A stretch of DNA of 48,195 nt from Syntrophomonadaceae bacterium (GTDB taxonomy: Bacteria > Bacillota > Dethiobacteria > DTU022 > UBA8154), in NCBI GenBank assembly GCA_003556225.1, contig PWRN01000043.1:1-48195 (forward strand), written 5' to 3'. The notes beneath the pieces were generated by a model. The model made no database searches. It saw only the letters and a program-made list of their open reading frames with translations, and was not told where the DNA came from. A program made the position numbers and the translations under genes. Of this stretch, positions 26,291 through 43,822 are shown piece by piece. Each line of letters opens with the position of its first letter. Positions within the stretch are counted from its first letter, which is position 1.

Positions 26291-26339
26291 CGTCGTTTTT
26301 CACCATACCAGGGACGCTGAACAAGGGAGGTTGAACCTG

Positions 26340-27386
26340 TTGGAGCTGCGTGTTTTACTCCAGGAAATATCGCAAAGAGATGGTGTTTCAGGGTTTGAGC
26401 AGTTATTGGCGAGCTACCTGAGCCAGCAGTTCGAGGTTTTTGTGGACGAAACACGAACGGATCACCTGGGGAACCTGATCATGCTGAAAAAGGGCAGCAA
26501 AGGTTTTCCCCGGGTTATTTTATGCGCCCACATGGATGAGATCGGTCTCATGGTGACCAAGGTGGAAAAGGGCGGTTTTTTGCGCTTTACCTCCCTGGGC
26601 GGCTTCGATGTCCGGACCCTTCCCGGCCAGGTTGTGACCCTTTACGGGACCAGGAAGGTCAAAGGGATCATCGGCTTTACAGCCCCTCACCTGCAGACCG
26701 ACACGGAAAAAAAGAAAAGCGCCGAGATGGATCAATTATTTATCGATACGGGATTTCCCGAGGAGCAGGTCAAAGAGCTCATTCCCGTCGGCTCTGTGGC
26801 CGCCCTGCAGCGCAGCGTGGTGGAGCTCATGAACCAGTCTTGCGCCGGCAAGGCCATGGATGACCGGGCGGGAATCGCCGTGCTCTGGCAGTGCGCCACC
26901 GAACTGCAGAAATTGACCCACGAGGCGGACGTTTATTTTGTCGCCACGGTCCAGGAAGAGGTGGGGGTGCGAGGTGCGGTGGTCTCAACCTATGGGTTAA
27001 CCCCGGACCTGGGGGTAGCCGTCGATGTCTGCCACGGCAATATTCCGGGTGCCCAGGAGCACCAGGTTTCCGAACTCGGCAAGGGCCCGGTGATCACCTC
27101 CGGCCCGAATATTCACCCGGTCATCACAAGGAAGCTGACCACCATCGCGAAGGATTACCGCCTTCCTTTCCAGAAAGATGTTTCTCCCGGGCCCACAGGG
27201 ACGGACGCCCGGGCGATCCAGGTAAGCATGGAAGGCGTCCCGGTCGGCCTGCTCTCCATCCCCCTGCGCTACATGCATACCTCGGTGGAGCTGTTGGACC
27301 TGGATGATGTGAAGCAGGGCGGGAGACTCCTCGCTTATTTCGTTTCCAGCCTGGACAAAAACCTGGTGGAGGAACTGTCATGCTGA
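26340..27386 (+). CDS. M42 family aminopeptidase, first of three
   Basis: A 348-residue metallo-aminopeptidase of the M42 (TET/FrvX/YsdC) family with all expected metal and catalytic residues: AHMDEIG, MDDRAG, QEEVGVRG, the Asp in VAVDVCHG and the final His in RYMHTS. M42 enzymes assemble into hollow dodecamers that trim short peptides in the cytosol. TTG 26340 is 9 bases after GGGAGG; TTG 26331 touches that site. The stop overlaps the next M42 gene, and the three genes form a likely translationally coupled set. Confidence 0.92.
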   Translation: MELRVLLQEISQRDGVSGFEQLLASYLSQQFEVFVDETRTDHLGNLIMLKKGSKGFPRVILCAHMDEIGLMVTKVEKGGFLRFTSLGGFDVRTLPGQVVTLYGTRKVKGIIGFTAPHLQTDTEKKKSAEMDQLFIDTGFPEEQVKELIPVGSVAALQRSVVELMNQSCAGKAMDDRAGIAVLWQCATELQKLTHEADVYFVATVQEEVGVRGAVVSTYGLTPDLGVAVDVCHGNIPGAQEHQVSELGKGPVITSGPNIHPVITRKLTTIAKDYRLPFQKDVSPGPTGTDARAIQVSMEGVPVGLLSIPLRYMHTSVELLDLDDVKQGGRLLAYFVSSLDKNLVEELSC

Positions 27387-28414
27387 TCCAAGAACTCTCC
27401 AACCTGCCGGGTGTCTCGGGAGATGAAGGGAAGGTCCGCGAGTTTATCCGCGGGCAGTTAACCCAAATGGGGATCCAGCACCACGTGGACACCATGGGAA
27501 ACATCTACGCCAGGAGCCGCGGGCCGGAAAAAGAGGGCCTGGATCCCGGCCTGATGCTCTCGGCCCACATGGATGAAGTAGGATTAATGGTCGCCTGCGT
27601 GGAGAAGAGCGGACACCTGCGCTTTTACCCGGTCGGGGGGGTCAATCCCTGGTCCCTGGTTTCCAAGCCGGTGAAAATTGGGAAAGAAGAGGTACCCGGG
27701 GTGATCGGGGCCAAGGCCATTCACCTGCAAAAAGCGGAGGAACGCAAAAAAGCCCTGGAGATTGAACAGCTCTATATCGACATCGGCGCGAAAAACAAGG
27801 AAGATGCCGAGAAAAAAGTGCAGCCGGGTGACTATGCCTGCTTTGATACCCGCAGCGATACCCTGGCGGACGGAAAGATCATTACGGGGAAAGCCCTGGA
27901 TAACCGGGCCGGCTGCGCGGCCCTGCTGGAGCTCCTGCGCCGGGATTACCCTGCTTCTTTCACGGCAGTTTTTACGGTCCAGGAAGAGGTTGGATTAAGA
28001 GGAGCCCGGGTGGCCGCCTACCGGGTCAACCCCCAGGTGGCCCTGGTGCTGGAAACGACCACGGCAGCAGATCTCCTGGAAGTCAAGGAAAAAGATTTTG
28101 CCACGACAGTCGGTCGAGGACCGGCCTTGACCATCCGGGATGGCTCGGTGGTAACACACCCCCGGGTCCTGGAGCGCTTAATCGAAACGGCCGAAAAAGA
28201 AGCCCGGCCGTACCAATTCCGCCAGTTTACCGGGAGCTTTACCGATGCAGGCGTTATTTCCCTTTCCCGGTCAGGAGTGAAGGCGGGAGTGATTTCCACG
28301 CCCTGTCGCTACCTCCATACGGCTGCCTCCCTGCTGCACCGGGAGGACTGGGAGCATTTAGTGGAAATTGCCGACGGTTTCGTGCGGTCAGTTCATGAAA
28401 AGGGGTTGGAATAG
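27380..28414 (+). CDS. M42 family aminopeptidase, second of three
   Basis: A 344-residue M42 enzyme with AHMDEVG, LDNRAG, QEEVGLRG and RYLHTA. Where the first and third copies have Asp as the second-metal ligand (VDV), this one has Glu in LVLETTTAAD, a conservative change known in some M42 subfamilies and possibly linked to different metal or substrate preference. The start ATG overlaps the previous stop by 7 bases. Sequence divergence from its neighbours is high enough that they look like old paralogues rather than a recent triplication. Confidence 0.92.
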   Translation: MLIQELSNLPGVSGDEGKVREFIRGQLTQMGIQHHVDTMGNIYARSRGPEKEGLDPGLMLSAHMDEVGLMVACVEKSGHLRFYPVGGVNPWSLVSKPVKIGKEEVPGVIGAKAIHLQKAEERKKALEIEQLYIDIGAKNKEDAEKKVQPGDYACFDTRSDTLADGKIITGKALDNRAGCAALLELLRRDYPASFTAVFTVQEEVGLRGARVAAYRVNPQVALVLETTTAADLLEVKEKDFATTVGRGPALTIRDGSVVTHPRVLERLIETAEKEARPYQFRQFTGSFTDAGVISLSRSGVKAGVISTPCRYLHTAASLLHREDWEHLVEIADGFVRSVHEKGLE

Positions 28415-28415
28415 C

Positions 28416-29408
28416 ATGGAAGCGCTGCTGGAGAAACTTACAAAGACCTTTGGGCCGGCGGGATCGGAAGAAACCATCCGGGCGGTCATCCTGGAAGAAA
28501 CCAGGCCCTTTGCCGATGACGTGATGACCGACAACCTGGGCAACCTGGTGATTTCCCGGGGGAAGATGGATCAAGAAACAGTCCTGGTTGCCGCCCACAT
28601 GGACGAAATCGGGATCATGGTCACGTATATCGAAGAAAAAGGATTTTTACGCTTTACCAACGTGGGCGGTGTGAGGATTGAAACGCTCTTGGGCAGCCGC
28701 TTCGTTTTTCGCAACGGGACCACGGGTGTGATCGGCCTGGAAAAGCAAAAAGAGAAAAAAGATCCGGGGTTCAGTGCCTACTACCTGGACATCGGCGTAC
28801 GAGATGCTGACGAGGCCAAAAAACAGGTGCAGATAGGCGACACCGCCTGCTATGAACCTTCCTTTGGCCGGCAAGGCCGCCGGGTCATGGCAAAAGCGTT
28901 GGACAACCGGGCCGGCTGTGCCGTGTTAATCGAAGCCCTGAAAGCCCTGCCCCGCTCCCTGCCCCTGGGAGTCCATTTTGCCTTTACCGTGCAGGAAGAG
29001 CTGGGCCTGCGGGGGGCTACACCGTTGGCGTACCGGCTGAACCCTGCCTACGGTCTGGCCGTCGACGTGACGCGGGTCGGGGATACTCCCGAACCCGAAT
29101 ACAAAATGGGCGTTTCCCTGGGACAGGGGCCCGCTGTGAAGGTAAAGGACTCCTCGGTGATTTGCCACCCTGCCGTGGTAGAAAAACTGAAGTCCACGGC
29201 GGAAAAACAGGGCATTCCATACCAGATTGAAGTCCTGGAACGGGGAGGTACCGACGCGGGCGCCATACACCTCTCCCGGGAAGGCGTCCCCTCGGGCGTG
29301 CTTTCCGTCCCCTGTCGCTATATCCATAGCCCCGGGGAAATGGTGGACCTGGATGACATGGAAAACGCAGCCTCCCTGCTGCAGAGCCTGCTGCAGGAAC
29401 CCTGGTAA
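28416..29408 (+). CDS. M42 family aminopeptidase, third of three
   Basis: A 330-residue M42 enzyme with AHMDEIGIMV, LDNRAGC, QEELGLRG, the Asp in LAVDVTRVGD and RYIHSP. The N-terminus MEALLEKLTKTFGPAGSEE matches the family without a signal peptide. AGGGG lies 8-12 bases before ATG 28416, immediately after the second copy. A GC-rich stem with a T-rich tail follows the stop, so the transcript that starts at cimA may end here. Confidence 0.92.
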   Translation: MEALLEKLTKTFGPAGSEETIRAVILEETRPFADDVMTDNLGNLVISRGKMDQETVLVAAHMDEIGIMVTYIEEKGFLRFTNVGGVRIETLLGSRFVFRNGTTGVIGLEKQKEKKDPGFSAYYLDIGVRDADEAKKQVQIGDTACYEPSFGRQGRRVMAKALDNRAGCAVLIEALKALPRSLPLGVHFAFTVQEELGLRGATPLAYRLNPAYGLAVDVTRVGDTPEPEYKMGVSLGQGPAVKVKDSSVICHPAVVEKLKSTAEKQGIPYQIEVLERGGTDAGAIHLSREGVPSGVLSVPCRYIHSPGEMVDLDDMENAASLLQSLLQEPW

Positions 29409-29506: not shown

Positions 29507-29535
29507 TTGCGCTGTTTTCTGCAACGTGATAAAAT
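29507..29535 (+). promoter_or_regulatory. Promoter of the pantothenate operon
   Basis: TTGCGC (29507-29512) and TAAAAT (29530-29535) are 17 bases apart, with an extended TG (29527-29528) before the -10. Predicted transcription start is near 29542, giving a leader of about 174 nt before the first codon. Confidence 0.65.
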
Positions 29536-29541
29536 ATCGTG

Positions 29542-29715
29542 GGCGGGAACTTGCACCTGTACCATGAGAACTGCCGGATCATGAAACTGCATAGGAAAAA
29601 AGCGATTGCTCTGCCTGGAGCCGAGAGGACCGGGACAGCAGGTACATCAGCCAAGGGAATTATGTGCCTTTCTGCCTGCCGGAAAGGCACTTATTATTTA
29701 TAAGGCCTGGTGATC
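29542..29715 (+). ncRNA. Structured, riboswitch-like leader of the pan operon
   Basis: The leader can fold into a three-way junction: P1 TGTACC (29558-29563) with GGTACA (29641-29646); P2 ATGA/TCAT (29564-29567 with 29579-29582, one more pair if C29563 leaves P1) closing a loop with GAACTGCCGG; P3 TGCT..CCTGG with CCGGG..AGCA (29607-29640) ending flush with P1. The 3' strand of P1 plus one base, GGTACAT (29641-29647), can instead pair with ATGTGCC (29662-29668), which overlaps the 5' arm of the terminator at 29664-29690. Thus P1 and the antiterminator exclude each other. I cannot match it to TPP, THF, SAM, purine, lysine or c-di-GMP consensus elements; the orphan 'pan' motif is a candidate by context only. 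Confidence 0.5.
29664..29700 (+). terminator. Intrinsic terminator (attenuator) before the DUF2520 gene
   Basis: GTGCCTTTC (29664-29672) and GAAAGGCAC (29682-29690) form a perfect 9-bp stem, followed by TTATTATTTA. It lies downstream of the promoter at 29507 and only 15 bases before the first gene, so it is a regulatory attenuator rather than an end-of-operon terminator. Confidence 0.7.
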
Positions 29716-30618
29716 ATGAAAAGAATTGCCGTGATTGGCGCAGGAAATGTGGGGAAAGTACTGGGATTGGCCCTGTCCAGGCAGGGTTATTCCCTGGTGG
29801 GGGTGGTTACCCGCCGGACGGAGACCCTGGCCGCCGCGGGCGAGCTGCTGCAGTGCCCGGTCTATGAAGAACCCCACCTGGCCTCCCGGGAAGCGGAAAT
29901 TGTCCTGATGACGACCCCTGACGGGATGATTGCGGAGGTCTGCAGGAAGGTTGCGGACAACAGCGGTTTCTACCCCGGGCAGGTGGTTGTGCACTGCAGC
30001 GGTGTCCACAACTCGGGAATTTTGCAAGCAGCCCGGGAAGCCGGAGCCCTTGTTTTATCCATGCATCCGCTCCAGACTTTTCCGGGAACGGAAGCGGGGC
30101 TGCGGGGGCTTCCTGGCACTTTTTTTGCCGTGGAAGGGGACCGGGAGGCCTTGCCGGTGGCGGAAGAACTGGTCAGCGCCCTGGGCGGCAAGATCATGTC
30201 CATTCCCACGGAGATGAAGACCCTGTATCACGCTGCGGCCTGTATCGCCTGCAACTACCTGGCAACCCTGCTGGACGGCGCCCTCCGGCTTTACCAGCAC
30301 ATGGATGTCCCCGGGGAAGAGGCCATGGAAGCCCTTTACCCCTTGGTCTCCATGACCCTGGAAAACATCAAGGAGGTGGGCCCGGAGCAGGCGTTGACGG
30401 GACCTATCGCCCGGGGAGATGCGGCAACCGTCCAGTCTCACGTCGCAGAACTCAGCCGCTCTTTTCCCAGCTTGCTGCCCCTCTACAGGACCCTGGGACA
30501 GGAAACCGTCAGGTTGGCGCTGCGCAAGGGCACCCTGGACGCGGAACAGGCAGAAAAAATCTACCAATGTCTAGAAGGAGGCTCCACTGAACATGACGGA
30601 TCGCTATTCCATCGTTGA
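29716..30618 (+). CDS. Rossmann/DUF2520 oxidoreductase, candidate ketopantoate reductase
   Basis: A 300-residue protein with an N-terminal NAD(P)-binding Rossmann fold (GAGNVG at residues 8-13) and a C-terminal helical DUF2520 domain (from about residue 150, KTLYHAAACIACNYLATLL). This layout resembles 6-phosphogluconate-dehydrogenase-like reductases such as ketopantoate reductase. It is the first gene of the panBCD operon and overlaps panB by 26 bases, and no panE is seen, so ketopantoate reduction (a PanG-like role) is a reasonable inference. ATG 29716 is preferred over GTG 29710. Confidence 0.75.
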   Translation: MKRIAVIGAGNVGKVLGLALSRQGYSLVGVVTRRTETLAAAGELLQCPVYEEPHLASREAEIVLMTTPDGMIAEVCRKVADNSGFYPGQVVVHCSGVHNSGILQAAREAGALVLSMHPLQTFPGTEAGLRGLPGTFFAVEGDREALPVAEELVSALGGKIMSIPTEMKTLYHAAACIACNYLATLLDGALRLYQHMDVPGEEAMEALYPLVSMTLENIKEVGPEQALTGPIARGDAATVQSHVAELSRSFPSLLPLYRTLGQETVRLALRKGTLDAEQAEKIYQCLEGGSTEHDGSLFHR

Positions 30619-31432
30619 TTTCCGGGAGATGAAAAAAGAAAAGAAGCAGATCGCCATGCTGACCGCCTACGATTTTCCCACAGCACAGCTGGTGGACGAA
30701 GCGGGGGTGGAGATCATCCTGGTGGGAGACTCCCTGGGCATGGTGGTCTTGGGTTACGAGGATACTCTCTCGGTCACCCTGGATGACATGATTCACCACA
30801 GCAAGGCGGTAGTTCGCGGCAGCAAGCGTTCTTTTGTCGTGGTGGATATGCCCTTCCTCACCTACCATATTAACGAAGAAGAAGCCCTGCGCAATGCCGG
30901 GAGAATCATGCAGGAAACCGGGGCCCAGGGCGTTAAGGTGGAAGGCGGCGTGGAAATCATCAAGGCGGTACGCGCCATCACCTCCGCCGGGATTCCCGTG
31001 ATGGGGCACTTGGGCCTGACCCCGCAGTCTGCCGGCCAGCTGGGAGGATTTAAGGTCCAGGGCAAGGATCCCCGGGTTGCCAGGAAAATGATCGATGATG
31101 CCCTGGCCCTGGAGTCAGCCGGTGCTTTCTCCCTGGTGCTGGAATGCGTGCCCTGGCAGCTGGCCCGGGTGATTACCGAGAAGGTTTCCATTCCCGTGAT
31201 CGGCATCGGCGCCGGCAAATATTGCGACGGGCAGGTGCTGGTCTATCACGATGTGATGGGGCTTTTTACGGGGAAACGCCCCAAGTTTGTAAAGCAGTAC
31301 GTGGACGCCAGGAGCGAGATGGTCAAAGGCGTCCAGGAGTACATGAAAGAACTGAAGGAAGGTATGTTTCCTGCCGAGCAGCACACCTTTACCATGACGG
31401 AAGAGGTGCTGGAAGAGGTCTTGAAGGAATAG
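30593..31432 (+). CDS. panB: 3-methyl-2-oxobutanoate hydroxymethyltransferase
   Basis: A 279-residue barrel enzyme that transfers a hydroxymethyl group from 5,10-methylene-tetrahydrofolate to ketoisovalerate, making ketopantoate. Motifs include AMLTAYDFPTAQL, LVGDSLGMVVLGY (Mg-binding Asp), GGVEIIKAV, VMGHLGLTPQ and GIGAGKYCDGQVLVYHD. AAGGAGG lies 12 bases before ATG, inside the preceding gene. It is followed by panC after 9 bases. Confidence 0.97.
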   Translation: MTDRYSIVDFREMKKEKKQIAMLTAYDFPTAQLVDEAGVEIILVGDSLGMVVLGYEDTLSVTLDDMIHHSKAVVRGSKRSFVVVDMPFLTYHINEEEALRNAGRIMQETGAQGVKVEGGVEIIKAVRAITSAGIPVMGHLGLTPQSAGQLGGFKVQGKDPRVARKMIDDALALESAGAFSLVLECVPWQLARVITEKVSIPVIGIGAGKYCDGQVLVYHDVMGLFTGKRPKFVKQYVDARSEMVKGVQEYMKELKEGMFPAEQHTFTMTEEVLEEVLKE

Positions 31433-31441
31433 GAGGTCATC

Positions 31442-32287
31442 ATGCAGGTCATTGAAAGGAATTCCGACCTGAGAACCGTCCTGGGCGAGGTGAAGAAAAA
31501 AGGCCTGCGCGTCGGCTTTGTGCCCACCATGGGATTCTTGCATGAAGGGCACCTTTCCCTGGTCCGGGCCGCCCGCCAGGAAAACGACTTCGTGGTGGTG
31601 AGCATTTTTGTCAATCCCATCCAATTCGGGGCCGGGGAAGACTACCAGGATTATCCGCGGGACCTGGAGAGGGACTGCAAGCTGGCTTCGGCCGAGGGGT
31701 GCGATCTGATCTTTTCCCCGCCGGTGATCGAGATGTACCCCCCCGGCTACGCCACCTTCGTTGAGGTGGAAAACTTAACGGAAACCCTTTGCGGCGCTCG
31801 TCGGCCCGGCCACTTTCGCGGAGTCACCACGGTGGTTGCCAAGCTTTTCAACCTGGTGGCACCGGACCAGGTTTATTTCGGGCAAAAAGACGCGCAGCAG
31901 GCCCTGGTCTTAAAAAAGATGGTCACGGACCTGAACATGGACCTGCAGTTTCACATCCTGCCCACCATCCGGGAAGACGATGGACTGGCCATGAGTTCCC
32001 GGAACAAGTATTTGTCGCCGCGGCAGCGCCGTGAGGCCGCGGTTTTGTATCGCAGCCTGCAGGAAGCAGAAAGGTTGATCCAGGGCGGCGTTCGCTCCGC
32101 ACAGGATGTCAAGGCAGCCATGGTCAGCTTGATCGCCGGGGCAGAAGAGGCCGAAATAGACTACGTGGAAATCGTGCAAGCCGCTAACCTGCTGCCGCTG
32201 GAGCGGCTGCAGGGCGCGTGCCTGGTTGCCCTGGCCGTCAGGTTTGGCAAAACCAGGCTGATCGACAACATACTTTTGGAGGTGTAG
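31442..32287 (+). CDS. panC: Pantothenate synthetase
   Basis: A 281-residue enzyme that condenses pantoate and beta-alanine with ATP. It shows the nucleotidyl-transferase HxGH-type motif (PTMGFLHEGHLSLV), FVNPIQFG, the LCGARRPGHFRGVTTVV segment, YFGQKDAQQ and SSRNKYLS (KMSKS-equivalent). AGGAGGTCATC precedes the ATG. panD begins 3 bases after its stop, so panB, panC and panD are clearly co-transcribed. Confidence 0.97.
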   Translation: MQVIERNSDLRTVLGEVKKKGLRVGFVPTMGFLHEGHLSLVRAARQENDFVVVSIFVNPIQFGAGEDYQDYPRDLERDCKLASAEGCDLIFSPPVIEMYPPGYATFVEVENLTETLCGARRPGHFRGVTTVVAKLFNLVAPDQVYFGQKDAQQALVLKKMVTDLNMDLQFHILPTIREDDGLAMSSRNKYLSPRQRREAAVLYRSLQEAERLIQGGVRSAQDVKAAMVSLIAGAEEAEIDYVEIVQAANLLPLERLQGACLVALAVRFGKTRLIDNILLEV

Positions 32288-32290
32288 TGT

Positions 32291-32656
32291 TTGATCCGGA
32301 CGATGTGTAAATCCAAGATCCACAGGGCGACGGTCACCGATGCCAATTTAAACTATGTCGGCAGCATTACCATCGACCAGGAACTCCTGGAAAAGGCCGA
32401 TATTCTGCCCTACGAAAAAGTCCAGGTAGTGAACAACAACAACGGTGCCCGCCTGGAAACCTATACCATTCCCGGGGAGCGCGGAAAAGGGGACATTTGT
32501 TTAAATGGAGCCGCCGCCCGACTGGTGCAGCCGGGGGATATCGTAATTATCATTAGCTATGCCCAGTACACCCGGGAAGATCTCCGCGACTATACACCTA
32601 AAGTGTTGCTGGTCGATGAACAAAACCGCATTACCCGGATCGCCTCGGAGGGATGA
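32291..32656 (+). CDS. panD: Aspartate 1-decarboxylase
   Basis: A 121-residue pyruvoyl enzyme precursor that makes beta-alanine from aspartate. Self-cleavage at the Gly-Ser bond in YVGSITID (about residue 28) generates the pyruvoyl group. Other family marks are [12 protein letters not shown] and [17 protein letters not shown]. The TTG start at 32291 is 7 bases after GGAGGT; ATG at 32303 is an alternative giving MCKSKIHRA. With panB and panC it supplies complete pantothenate synthesis apart from ketopantoate reduction. Confidence 0.96.
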
Positions 32657-32806: not shown

Positions 32807-34048
32807 GTGAAGAGTAGTGAAGAGGGACGGAAAATCTCGTTGCAGCGGGCTGAAGAATTAAAGGCCAGTATTGCCGATTACCTGGAATTTCGCCAGGAGA
32901 TCCCCACGGGGTTCACGGAATGGGAAACCATCCAGGAACGGCAGGAAGCCATCAAAGCCCACTTCGGGGCTTCCGAAGAAGCATGGAAGGATTGGGGCTG
33001 GCAGCTGGATCACCGTATCCACGATGCCGAGACCCTGGGCAAATTCCTAAACTTAACGGTCCGGGAAAAAGAAGAAATCAGCCTCACGGGCAGCAAGTAT
33101 CGCTGGGCCGTTGTGCCCTACTACTTGAGCCTGATTGACCCGGATAACCCCCAGGATCCGGTGCGCCTGCAGTGCATCCCCACCCGCCGGGAGTATGACG
33201 ACCAGTGCGGTGTGATGGATCCCATGGCCGAGGAATTCACGTCTCCCGCACCGGCCATTACGCGGAGATACCCGGACCGCCTGATTATCAATATTACCAA
33301 CCAGTGCGCCATGTACTGCCGTCACTGCCAGCGCCGCAGAAACATTGGTGAAACAGACCACCAGACGCCCCAGGAGGAAATTGAAGCGGCCCTGCAGTAT
33401 ATCGCGGAAAACGAAGAAATTCGCGATGTGCTCCTCACGGGCGGTGATGCCTTCATGCTCACCGATGACATGCTGGACTGGATCTTAACCGAACTGGACA
33501 AGATTCCCCACGTGGAGATCAAGCGCCTGGGCAGCCGGACGCCGGTTACCTTACCCTACCGGGTTACCGATAATCTCTGCCGGGTTTTGGGCAAGCACCT
33601 GCCCCTCTACGTGAATACCCATTTCAACACGCCCCAGGAGGTGTCCCCGGCTTCAAGAGACGCCTGCTTCGCCCTGGCCAGGGCGGGGGTGGCCCTGGGC
33701 AACCAGGCGGTGCTCCTCAAGGGGGTCAACAACCACCCCCTGGTGATGCGCAAGTTGAATCACGAACTGTTAAAGATCATGGTCCGTCCCTATTATATTT
33801 TCCACGCCAAGGGCGTCCAGGGCACCAGCCATTTACGCACCCGCGTGGAAGAGGGAATCGAGATCATGGAAAAATTGCGGGGCTATACCTCGGGGCTGGC
33901 CATTCCCACCTATATCGTAAACGCGCCCCAGGGATACGGAAAGACACCCATGCTGCCGGAATATTTATTATCCATGGGCACAGAAAAGATGGTTATTCGC
34001 ACCTGGGAAAGAAGGGTGCTGGACTATGAAAATGACGAGGAAATCTAG
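32807..34048 (+). CDS. eam: Glutamate 2,3-aminomutase
   Basis: A 413-residue radical-SAM, PLP-dependent aminomutase. The 4Fe-4S motif is C167xxxC171xxC174 (CAMYCRHC) and the PLP lysine is K379 in APQGYGK. The KAM family splits at two positions: lysine 2,3-aminomutase has Asp residues (D293 and D330 in the C. subterminale enzyme) that bind the substrate side-chain amine, whereas the glutamate enzyme has Lys and Asn. Here they are K335 (FHAKGVQG) and N372 (IVNAPQG), so the substrate is predicted to be L-glutamate and the product L-beta-glutamate, a compatible solute. The protein is monocistronic with its own promoter and terminator. Confidence 0.87.
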   Translation: MKSSEEGRKISLQRAEELKASIADYLEFRQEIPTGFTEWETIQERQEAIKAHFGASEEAWKDWGWQLDHRIHDAETLGKFLNLTVREKEEISLTGSKYRWAVVPYYLSLIDPDNPQDPVRLQCIPTRREYDDQCGVMDPMAEEFTSPAPAITRRYPDRLIINITNQCAMYCRHCQRRRNIGETDHQTPQEEIEAALQYIAENEEIRDVLLTGGDAFMLTDDMLDWILTELDKIPHVEIKRLGSRTPVTLPYRVTDNLCRVLGKHLPLYVNTHFNTPQEVSPASRDACFALARAGVALGNQAVLLKGVNNHPLVMRKLNHELLKIMVRPYYIFHAKGVQGTSHLRTRVEEGIEIMEKLRGYTSGLAIPTYIVNAPQGYGKTPMLPEYLLSMGTEKMVIRTWERRVLDYENDEEI

Positions 34049-42826: not shown

Positions 42827-42855
42827 TTGCTATTTAACAGGTTCTGTGTTATACT
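42827..42855 (+). promoter_or_regulatory. Promoter of rpsB-tsf
   Basis: TTGCTA (42827-42832) and TATACT (42850-42855) with 17-base spacing and an extended TG at 42847-42848. Predicted start of transcription is near 42862, so the leader is about 106 nt. Confidence 0.65.
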
Positions 42856-42861
42856 ACCTAA

Positions 42862-42967
42862 TGGCTTTATTACCCACACTGCTGAAGCTCCAAAAGGGGT
42901 GCCTGCAGCGTGCAGGTTTTTTCGAGCGATGATGCAGTGGAGGACTAACCAACCAGGAGGTTTTGCA
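42862..42967 (+). promoter_or_regulatory. rpsB leader with terminator/antiterminator pair
   Basis: CCTGCA-GCG-TGCAGG (42902-42916) followed by six T is an intrinsic terminator downstream of the promoter. An upstream CACACTGC (42875-42882) can pair with GCAGCGTG (42905-42912) with one mismatch, which would break the terminator; a CTCC-AAAA-GGGG hairpin fills the loop between them. The arrangement suggests transcription attenuation of rpsB-tsf, perhaps by S2 itself; the ligand is inference. Confidence 0.5.
42902..42922 (+). terminator. Attenuator hairpin in the rpsB leader
   Basis: Perfect 6-bp stem CCTGCA/TGCAGG with loop GCG and TTTTTT directly after it. It lies 46 bases before the rpsB ATG. 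Confidence 0.65.
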
Positions 42968-43822
42968 ATGCCGGTCGTAACCATGAAACAACTTTTGGAA
43001 GCCGGGGTGCACTTCGGACACCAAACGAGGCGCTGGAACCCCAAGATGAAGGAATTTATTTTTACGGAGCGAAACGGGATCTACATCATTGATTTACAGA
43101 AGACCGTGCGCTTGATGGATGTCGCCTACAACTTCGTGAAAGAACTGGCGTACAACGGGGAAAAGGTTTTGTTTGTGGGGACCAAGAAGCAGGCGCAGGA
43201 ATCCATTTCCGATGAAGCAAACCGGTGCGAGATGCCTTACGTGAACCAGCGCTGGCTGGGGGGCATGCTCACGAACTATGCCACGATTAAAAAGCGCATC
43301 GACAGGCTTTTTGAGCTGGAAAAAATGGAAGAAGACGGTCTTTTTGACGTTCTACCCAAGAAAGAAGTCATCAAGCTCAACCACGAGAAAGAGAAACTAA
43401 ACAAGTTCATGGGGGGAATCCGCACCATGAAAGATCTGCCCGCGGCGGTTTATATCGTGGATCCCCGGAAGGAAAAAATCGCGGTTGCCGAAGCCCGGAA
43501 GCTGGAAATCCCGATCATCGCGATCGTGGATACCAACTGCGACCCCGACGAAATTGACTATATCGTCCCCGGCAATGACGATGCCATCCGGGCCGTGAAA
43601 CTGATCACCTCGAAAATGGCGGAAGCGGTCCTGGAAGGCAAGCAGGGCTTGCAGGAAGCGGAAGCGGCTGCGGCCCACGCTGCGGCCCAGGCAAAAGCCC
43701 AGGCAGAAGCCGAGGCGGAAGCGGCCGCGGCCGCAGAAACGGCAGGTGAGCCGGAAGCCGGCGCGGAAAGTAGCGAAGCGGCGGAAGAAGTCTCGGTCAC
43801 CCGGGAGCTGGAAACAGAGTAA
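42968..43822 (+). CDS. rpsB: 30S ribosomal protein S2
   Basis: A 284-residue S2 with [40 protein letters not shown] (split), [20 protein letters not shown] (20 residues) and [18 protein letters not shown]2 joins 30S late and contacts S1 in bacteria that have it. The last 50 or so residues form a low-complexity Ala/Glu/Gln tail ([20 protein letters not shown]), longer than in Bacillus S2. ATG 42968 has AGGAGG 7 bases upstream. tsf follows after 78 bases. Confidence 0.97.

Follow-up and report, generated by a model that had tools for sequence, protein, structure and literature searches.

Comparison with related genomes places the leader in front of the DUF2520-panBCD operon in the pan motif (RF01749), a class described in 2010 (Weinberg et al., 2010; PMC2864571), and it is likely that this leader acts as a transcription attenuator in which the operon is turned off when an effector holds the second of two hairpins (H2) closed. 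The DNA analyzed, hereafter the window, is a stretch of 48,195 nucleotides. As an identity the result is ordinary, pan being a known orphan class; its usefulness is that it provides a concrete, testable switch for the class.

The default Rfam scan of the whole window was empty because the pan score of the leader lies under the gathering threshold. A sensitive scan of the leader gave RF01749 as the sole credible match, covering 29540-29642 and the whole model (1-92) with 32.7 bits against a gathering score of 36.2 bits, a value that is a search threshold and no structural feature; the low score is due to a family variant of hairpin 1 (H1) that has lost two apical pairs. A covariance model trained on 27 leaders of the window's family and class, the window excluded, scored the leader at 53.8 bits (E = 2.8e-11), matched nothing else in the 48 kb of the window at E up to 10 and had in this leader its only credible match in the genome. 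The motif was present in 20 of the 23 genomes of the window's family, 17 of which exceeded the Rfam cut-off with pan placed before the DUF2520-pan operon as in the window, and also in 39/98 genomes of the class and 158/398 genomes sampled across the phylum; among 20 DUF2520 loci from Planctomycetes and other phyla, none had it. Given these 17 genomes and the score of the window-free model, the leader is, on comparative grounds, a true pan member that had been missed. An earlier note on this DNA had named it an unassigned riboswitch-like leader, a label superseded by both the Rfam scan and the window-free model; its choice of pan as the first motif to compare was right, and its view of a structured cis-regulatory leader before a pantothenate operon was borne out by the conservation of pan in relatives. 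Of the Rfam comparisons it had proposed, pan gave the sub-threshold match described above, whereas THF and TPP gave none; T-box likewise had no match in the leader (E up to 10), and the other Rfam classes gave no credible one.

The strings quoted in the earlier note all lie at the positions it gives. At z = -0.67, the folding energy of 29542-29715 is unremarkable, and a perfect 6-bp match like that of the helix named P1 in the earlier note appears in about 15% of shuffles. The significance of the leader was therefore sought in relatives, and it stems from conservation, not from folding energy.

Table 1. Features of the pan leader and the downstream operon in the window.
Feature	Position	Strand	Sequence and evidence
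Predicted sigma-70-type promoter	29507..29535	+	TTGCGC-17-TAAAAT; sequence
pan hairpin 1 (H1)	29540..29564	+	TGGGCGGG-A-AC..CACCTGT-A-CCA; Rfam pan match, 144-locus parse, A2 covariation
pan hairpin 2 (H2)	29611..29638	+	CTGCCTGG-A-GCC GAGA GGACCGGG-A-CAG; Rfam pan match, window-free model, 144-locus parse, A2
Antiterminator 5' strand	29636..29647	+	H2 base CAG (29636-29638) and flank GGTACAT (29641-29647); cross-family swap test
Antiterminator 3' strand (predicted)	29662..29674	+	ATGTGCC and CTG, overlapping the terminator 5' arm; predicted folding
Intrinsic terminator hairpin	29664..29690	+	followed by TTATTATTT (29691-29699); terminator scan and folding
Rossmann/DUF2520 protein, first operon gene	29716..30618	+	Pfam PF10728, PF10727
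panB, ketopantoate hydroxymethyltransferase	30593..31432	+	TIGR00222
panC, pantoate--beta-alanine ligase	31442..32287	+	TIGR00018
panD, aspartate 1-decarboxylase	32291..32656	+	TIGR00223

As read from 144 oriented pan loci (the window and 143 relatives, from 130 genomes), the architecture of the leader is that of two tandem bulged hairpins and not the three-way junction of helices P1, P2 and P3 drawn in the earlier note. Both bulged A's of H2 (A29619 and A29635 in the window) are invariant in 144/144 loci, and those of H1 (A29548 and A29561) are kept in 140/144 and 143/144. The linker between the hairpins, 46 nt in the window, ranges from 10 to 75 nt across the loci (median 34) with no preferred length, and its sequence varies freely among orthologues; few unpaired nucleotides are invariant. 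Double-sided changes were found at 7 of the 21 pairs of alignment A2, nearly all within H1, and the covariation score of this alignment (0.226) exceeded that of shuffled alignments (0.139), with 0/500 shuffles reaching it; when partners were slid, pairing fell to 33-49%. Most H2 pairs are too conserved within the class for covariation testing, and across the wide set the second base pair of H2 is C-G in 80 loci, T-A in 55 and T-G in 7. The leader shares with RF01749 a tandem of stems that both carry two bulged A's, and a location before a panB/C/D operon in Firmicutes. It departs from the model in H1, where the family variant GGGAAC..ACC, without the two apical pairs, replaces GGUAUC..GAACC, and in H2, where the U-A beside the bulge is G-A. 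This pair, adjacent to the 5' bulged A (29619-29630 in the window), is U-A or G-A and hardly ever other (G-A in 57/144 loci), an alternation that suggests that the pair is non-canonical and touched by the effector.

Downstream of H2 the terminator anticipated in the earlier note was recovered, its 9 perfect pairs extending to 11 (29664-29690) and its U tract being weak and interrupted. The antiterminator proposed in the same note was also upheld: GGTACAT (29641-29647) and ATGTGCC (29662-29668) form 7 pairs, one of them U-G, an extended version typical of the window's family only, and together with the base of H2 the helix (29636-29647 with 29662-29674) has a pairing energy of -11.8 kcal/mol. 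Taken in the window alone this helix is statistically not striking, as 3% of random 13-mers pair equally well with the terminator arm. Equilibrium folding of growing transcripts, which is thermodynamic and not kinetic, gave the antiterminator a probability of 0.89-0.98 for 3' ends at 29668-29688 and the terminator a probability of 0.95 from 3' end 29692, a crossover predicted to occur during transcription of the leader.

Across the 144 loci, a terminator-like hairpin was called 3' of H2 in 142 by a crude detector, some of whose calls are wrong, and the base of H2 (CAG or CGG), together with the flank 3' of it, shows complementarity to the following terminator's 5' arm, as in locus L062, where CAGAGGGAT pairs with ATCCTTCTG. 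When one representative of each of 45 families, treated as independent, was used in a swap test, H2 base and flank paired with their own terminator arm at -10.25 kcal/mol vs -8.69 kcal/mol for arms swapped across families (0/10,000 permutations as good). The reversed flank (6,628/10,000 as good) and the 5' strand of H1 (4,209/10,000) were null, and pairing of the latter with the terminator arm, which folding had predicted as one intermediate in the window, was discarded. The flank without the H2 base gave a weak signal (333/10,000 as good); it is thus the H2 base that carries the signal, and this base is common to H2 and the antiterminator and contributes at least two of its three nucleotides to 93 of 113 antiterminators. 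Within the window's family the swap test was unsupportive (own -11.7 vs swapped -12.6 kcal/mol), tail and arm being almost invariant there. Folding of the window indicated that the 7-bp part of the antiterminator can coexist with H2, so that only the CAG/CTG extension or steric masking could make the two mutually exclusive. A putative expression platform alternating between two structures has support in the cross-family comparison and in predicted folding, but would be expected of a protein-controlled attenuator as well as of a metabolite riboswitch. In one ECF-coaX operon (L102) no convincing terminator was seen near H2, and the flank GGAGG sits as the Shine-Dalgarno sequence of the first gene, an arrangement read as the switch logic carried over to translation.

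The switch had been placed elsewhere in the earlier note, in a helix P1 at the foot of a three-way junction whose other arms are P2 and P3; stabilized by a ligand, P1 would release the terminator. The complementarity itself was verified (TGTACC 29558-29563 with GGTACA 29641-29646, perfect in the window and fully paired in 4 further of 20 family orthologues), but the helix was not: 13/20 orthologues carry an internal A-C mismatch, swapping partners gives stronger pairing (-6.3 kcal/mol) than the orthologues' own combinations (-5.9 kcal/mol, matched by 88% of permutations within the family), and P1 was absent among the relatives compared outside the family. P1 and the antiterminator were compared sequence by sequence, the MAFFT alignment of the flanks being too shifted for column counts, and two loci in which the automatic parse had misplaced H1 (L038 and L045) were inspected manually when P1 was counted. 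The ensemble probability of P1 did not exceed 0.05 at any transcript length tested, and the sequence proposed as its 5' strand already serves as the 3' strand of H1, where it covaries with the 5' strand of that hairpin. The P2 hairpin (CATGA/TCATG) was seen only in the window among the aligned leaders, in a linker that varies freely, and CTGCC, the linker partner of the suggested pseudoknot, was exact in the window only, among 20 aligned leaders. P1, P2 and the pseudoknot were rejected after these orthologue tests; the three-way junction is contradicted by the non-conservation and low probability of P1 together with the absence of P2 in relatives, and control through a ligand-stabilized P1 is accordingly highly improbable. 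What survives is the hairpin P3, which is H2, though not as an arm of a junction.

That the hairpins are elements of RNA stability or processing, followed by a terminator that is a fixed attenuator and whose complementarity with the H2 flank is incidental, is improbable. The frequency of equally good random 13-mers and the lack of a covariation signal within the window's family would agree with it, but the cross-family swap with its null controls argues against it, as does the consistently short distance at which the terminator lies 3' of H2. Attenuation by a leader peptide or a T-box, which the position of the leader and its terminator would suit as they would any attenuator, is scarcely credible: the Rfam scan had disclosed no T-box, and the short ORFs of the leader lack a run of amino-acid codons and cross the linker, which varies freely in orthologues. 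A leader peptide was rejected as no conserved or regulatory-looking ORF was found in the leader.

The pantothenate operon recognized downstream in the earlier note was confirmed by Pfam and TIGR matches, in the order DUF2520/Rossmann protein-panB-panC-panD (Table 1). PF08546, the C-terminal domain of classical ketopantoate reductase, is missing in 21/23 genomes of the family and DUF2520 is present in 21/23, which makes the DUF2520/Rossmann protein a strong candidate for, and probably, the ketopantoate reductase. Among the 144 pan loci the first recognized gene is DUF2520 in 88, panB in 23, panC in 11, panD in 1 and a PanS-like transporter followed by panC in 5; 128 loci precede pantothenate-synthesis or PanS genes. 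One further locus (L138) opens with an amidohydrolase, four have no recognized gene, and another 11 head operons of pantothenate transport-type and/or pantothenate kinase (CoaX, CoaW) genes. In these 11 loci, pan precedes BioY, BirA or ECF-S with the type III kinase CoaX (L075, L092, L096, L102, L141, L144, L158 and L167, the kinase being unconfirmed in L075 and L158) or an OPT transporter with the type II pantothenate kinase CoaW (L097, L098 and L145), and this association suggests that the kinase-linked transporters (BioY, ECF, OPT) carry pantothenate or its precursors. In L103, L105, L122, L159 and L168 a gene of the PanS-like bile-acid-symporter family lies between pan and panC, and no panB was recognized within the stretch read; such genes would fit a role in importing pantoate or ketopantoate. 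In its main text, the original description mentions operons with panB, panC and aspartate decarboxylase only (Weinberg et al., 2010; PMC2864571). The regulon thus appears wider than panBCD, adding CoaX/CoaW kinase operons and PanS, ECF or OPT transporter genes, and neither this extension nor the pair of exclusive helices, both read here from sequence, was found stated in that main text. The DUF2520 protein was also considered as a general RNA-binding regulator, a candidate discarded since panB, not DUF2520, comes first in 23 pan loci and since the Bacillus subtilis control genome has pan without a DUF2520 match.

The putative promoter of the window has a score of 8, with a -35 box that matches at 3/6 positions and a -10 box (TAAAAT) 4 nt before H1, and scores of at least 9 were obtained upstream of H1 in 71/144 loci vs 6% of shuffled controls; the transcript would start at or just before H1. 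In the attenuator model favoured here, H1 would be transcribed first and H2 next. With the pan hairpins unoccupied, the H2 base CAG and the flank GGTACAT are predicted, with comparative support, to capture the terminator's 5' arm by pairing and so delay the terminator, so the antiterminator would form first and the operon would be transcribed. An effector signalling enough pantothenate/CoA would bind the tandem hairpins, H2 would be held closed with its flank masked, and the terminator would form and stop transcription. The OFF polarity, which the mutually exclusive helix pair (H2 base vs antiterminator) predicts, as well as the nature of the effector and the steric masking, are what we infer; the same polarity had been assumed in the earlier note and is kept, with the base and 3' flank of H2 in place of P1 as the switching helix. 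CoA status rather than pantothenate would be the signal sensed, since an OFF switch responding to pantothenate would silence an enzyme that consumes it.

With respect to the effector, a trans-acting dimeric protein appears somewhat likelier than a directly bound metabolite. In the B. subtilis PyrR leader a hairpin is bound by protein, and antiterminator and terminator are mutually exclusive. Attenuators of this type and the favoured pan model are alike in logic; in the Rfam scan the leader did not match the PyrR site. A tentative possibility is that the tandem hairpins are themselves an aptamer for CoA, a phosphopantetheine intermediate or pantothenate, with the platform of H2, antiterminator and terminator unchanged. 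The mini-ykkC element, also a tandem of hairpins, turned out to be the guanidine-II riboswitch, so that a tandem of identical small hairpins does not by itself imply a protein; both it and pan place them before a switchable expression signal, a functional likeness at most, as the window shows no Rfam sequence match to guanidine-II, has other loops and other genes and is not a member. A regulon devoted entirely to pantothenate/CoA supply would suit an aptamer, and its kinase operons favour a downstream metabolite. On the other side, the scarcity of invariant unpaired nucleotides and the widely varying linker length leave little room for a pocket made by two hairpins, and no validated ligand, binding protein or mechanism for pan was found in the open-access papers searched. 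In addition, the main text of the original description reads pan as the binding site of a dimeric protein (Weinberg et al., 2010; PMC2864571). Among metabolite effectors, pantothenate would be less likely than CoA or a phosphopantetheine intermediate, because pan also controls pantothenate kinases. The specific proposal that pan is a riboswitch whose paired hairpins bind CoA or such an intermediate and close H2, so that pantothenate synthesis, uptake and phosphorylation are turned off together, is rather doubtful.

Other features were noted in the window. Three consecutive genes for M42-type aminopeptidases occupy 26331-29408, two assigned by Pfam and the third by sequence resemblance, and a glutamate 2,3-aminomutase gene (32807-34048; TIGR04368, above cut-off) lies directly 3' of panD. 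A local scan gave a sub-threshold match to the Rfam family t44 at 42855-42949 (33.1 bits, gathering score 44, E = 2e-5), which overlaps the 5' end of a listed ORF and stops about 20 bases short of the likely rpsB start (near 42970); it is probably a diverged leader of ribosomal protein S2.
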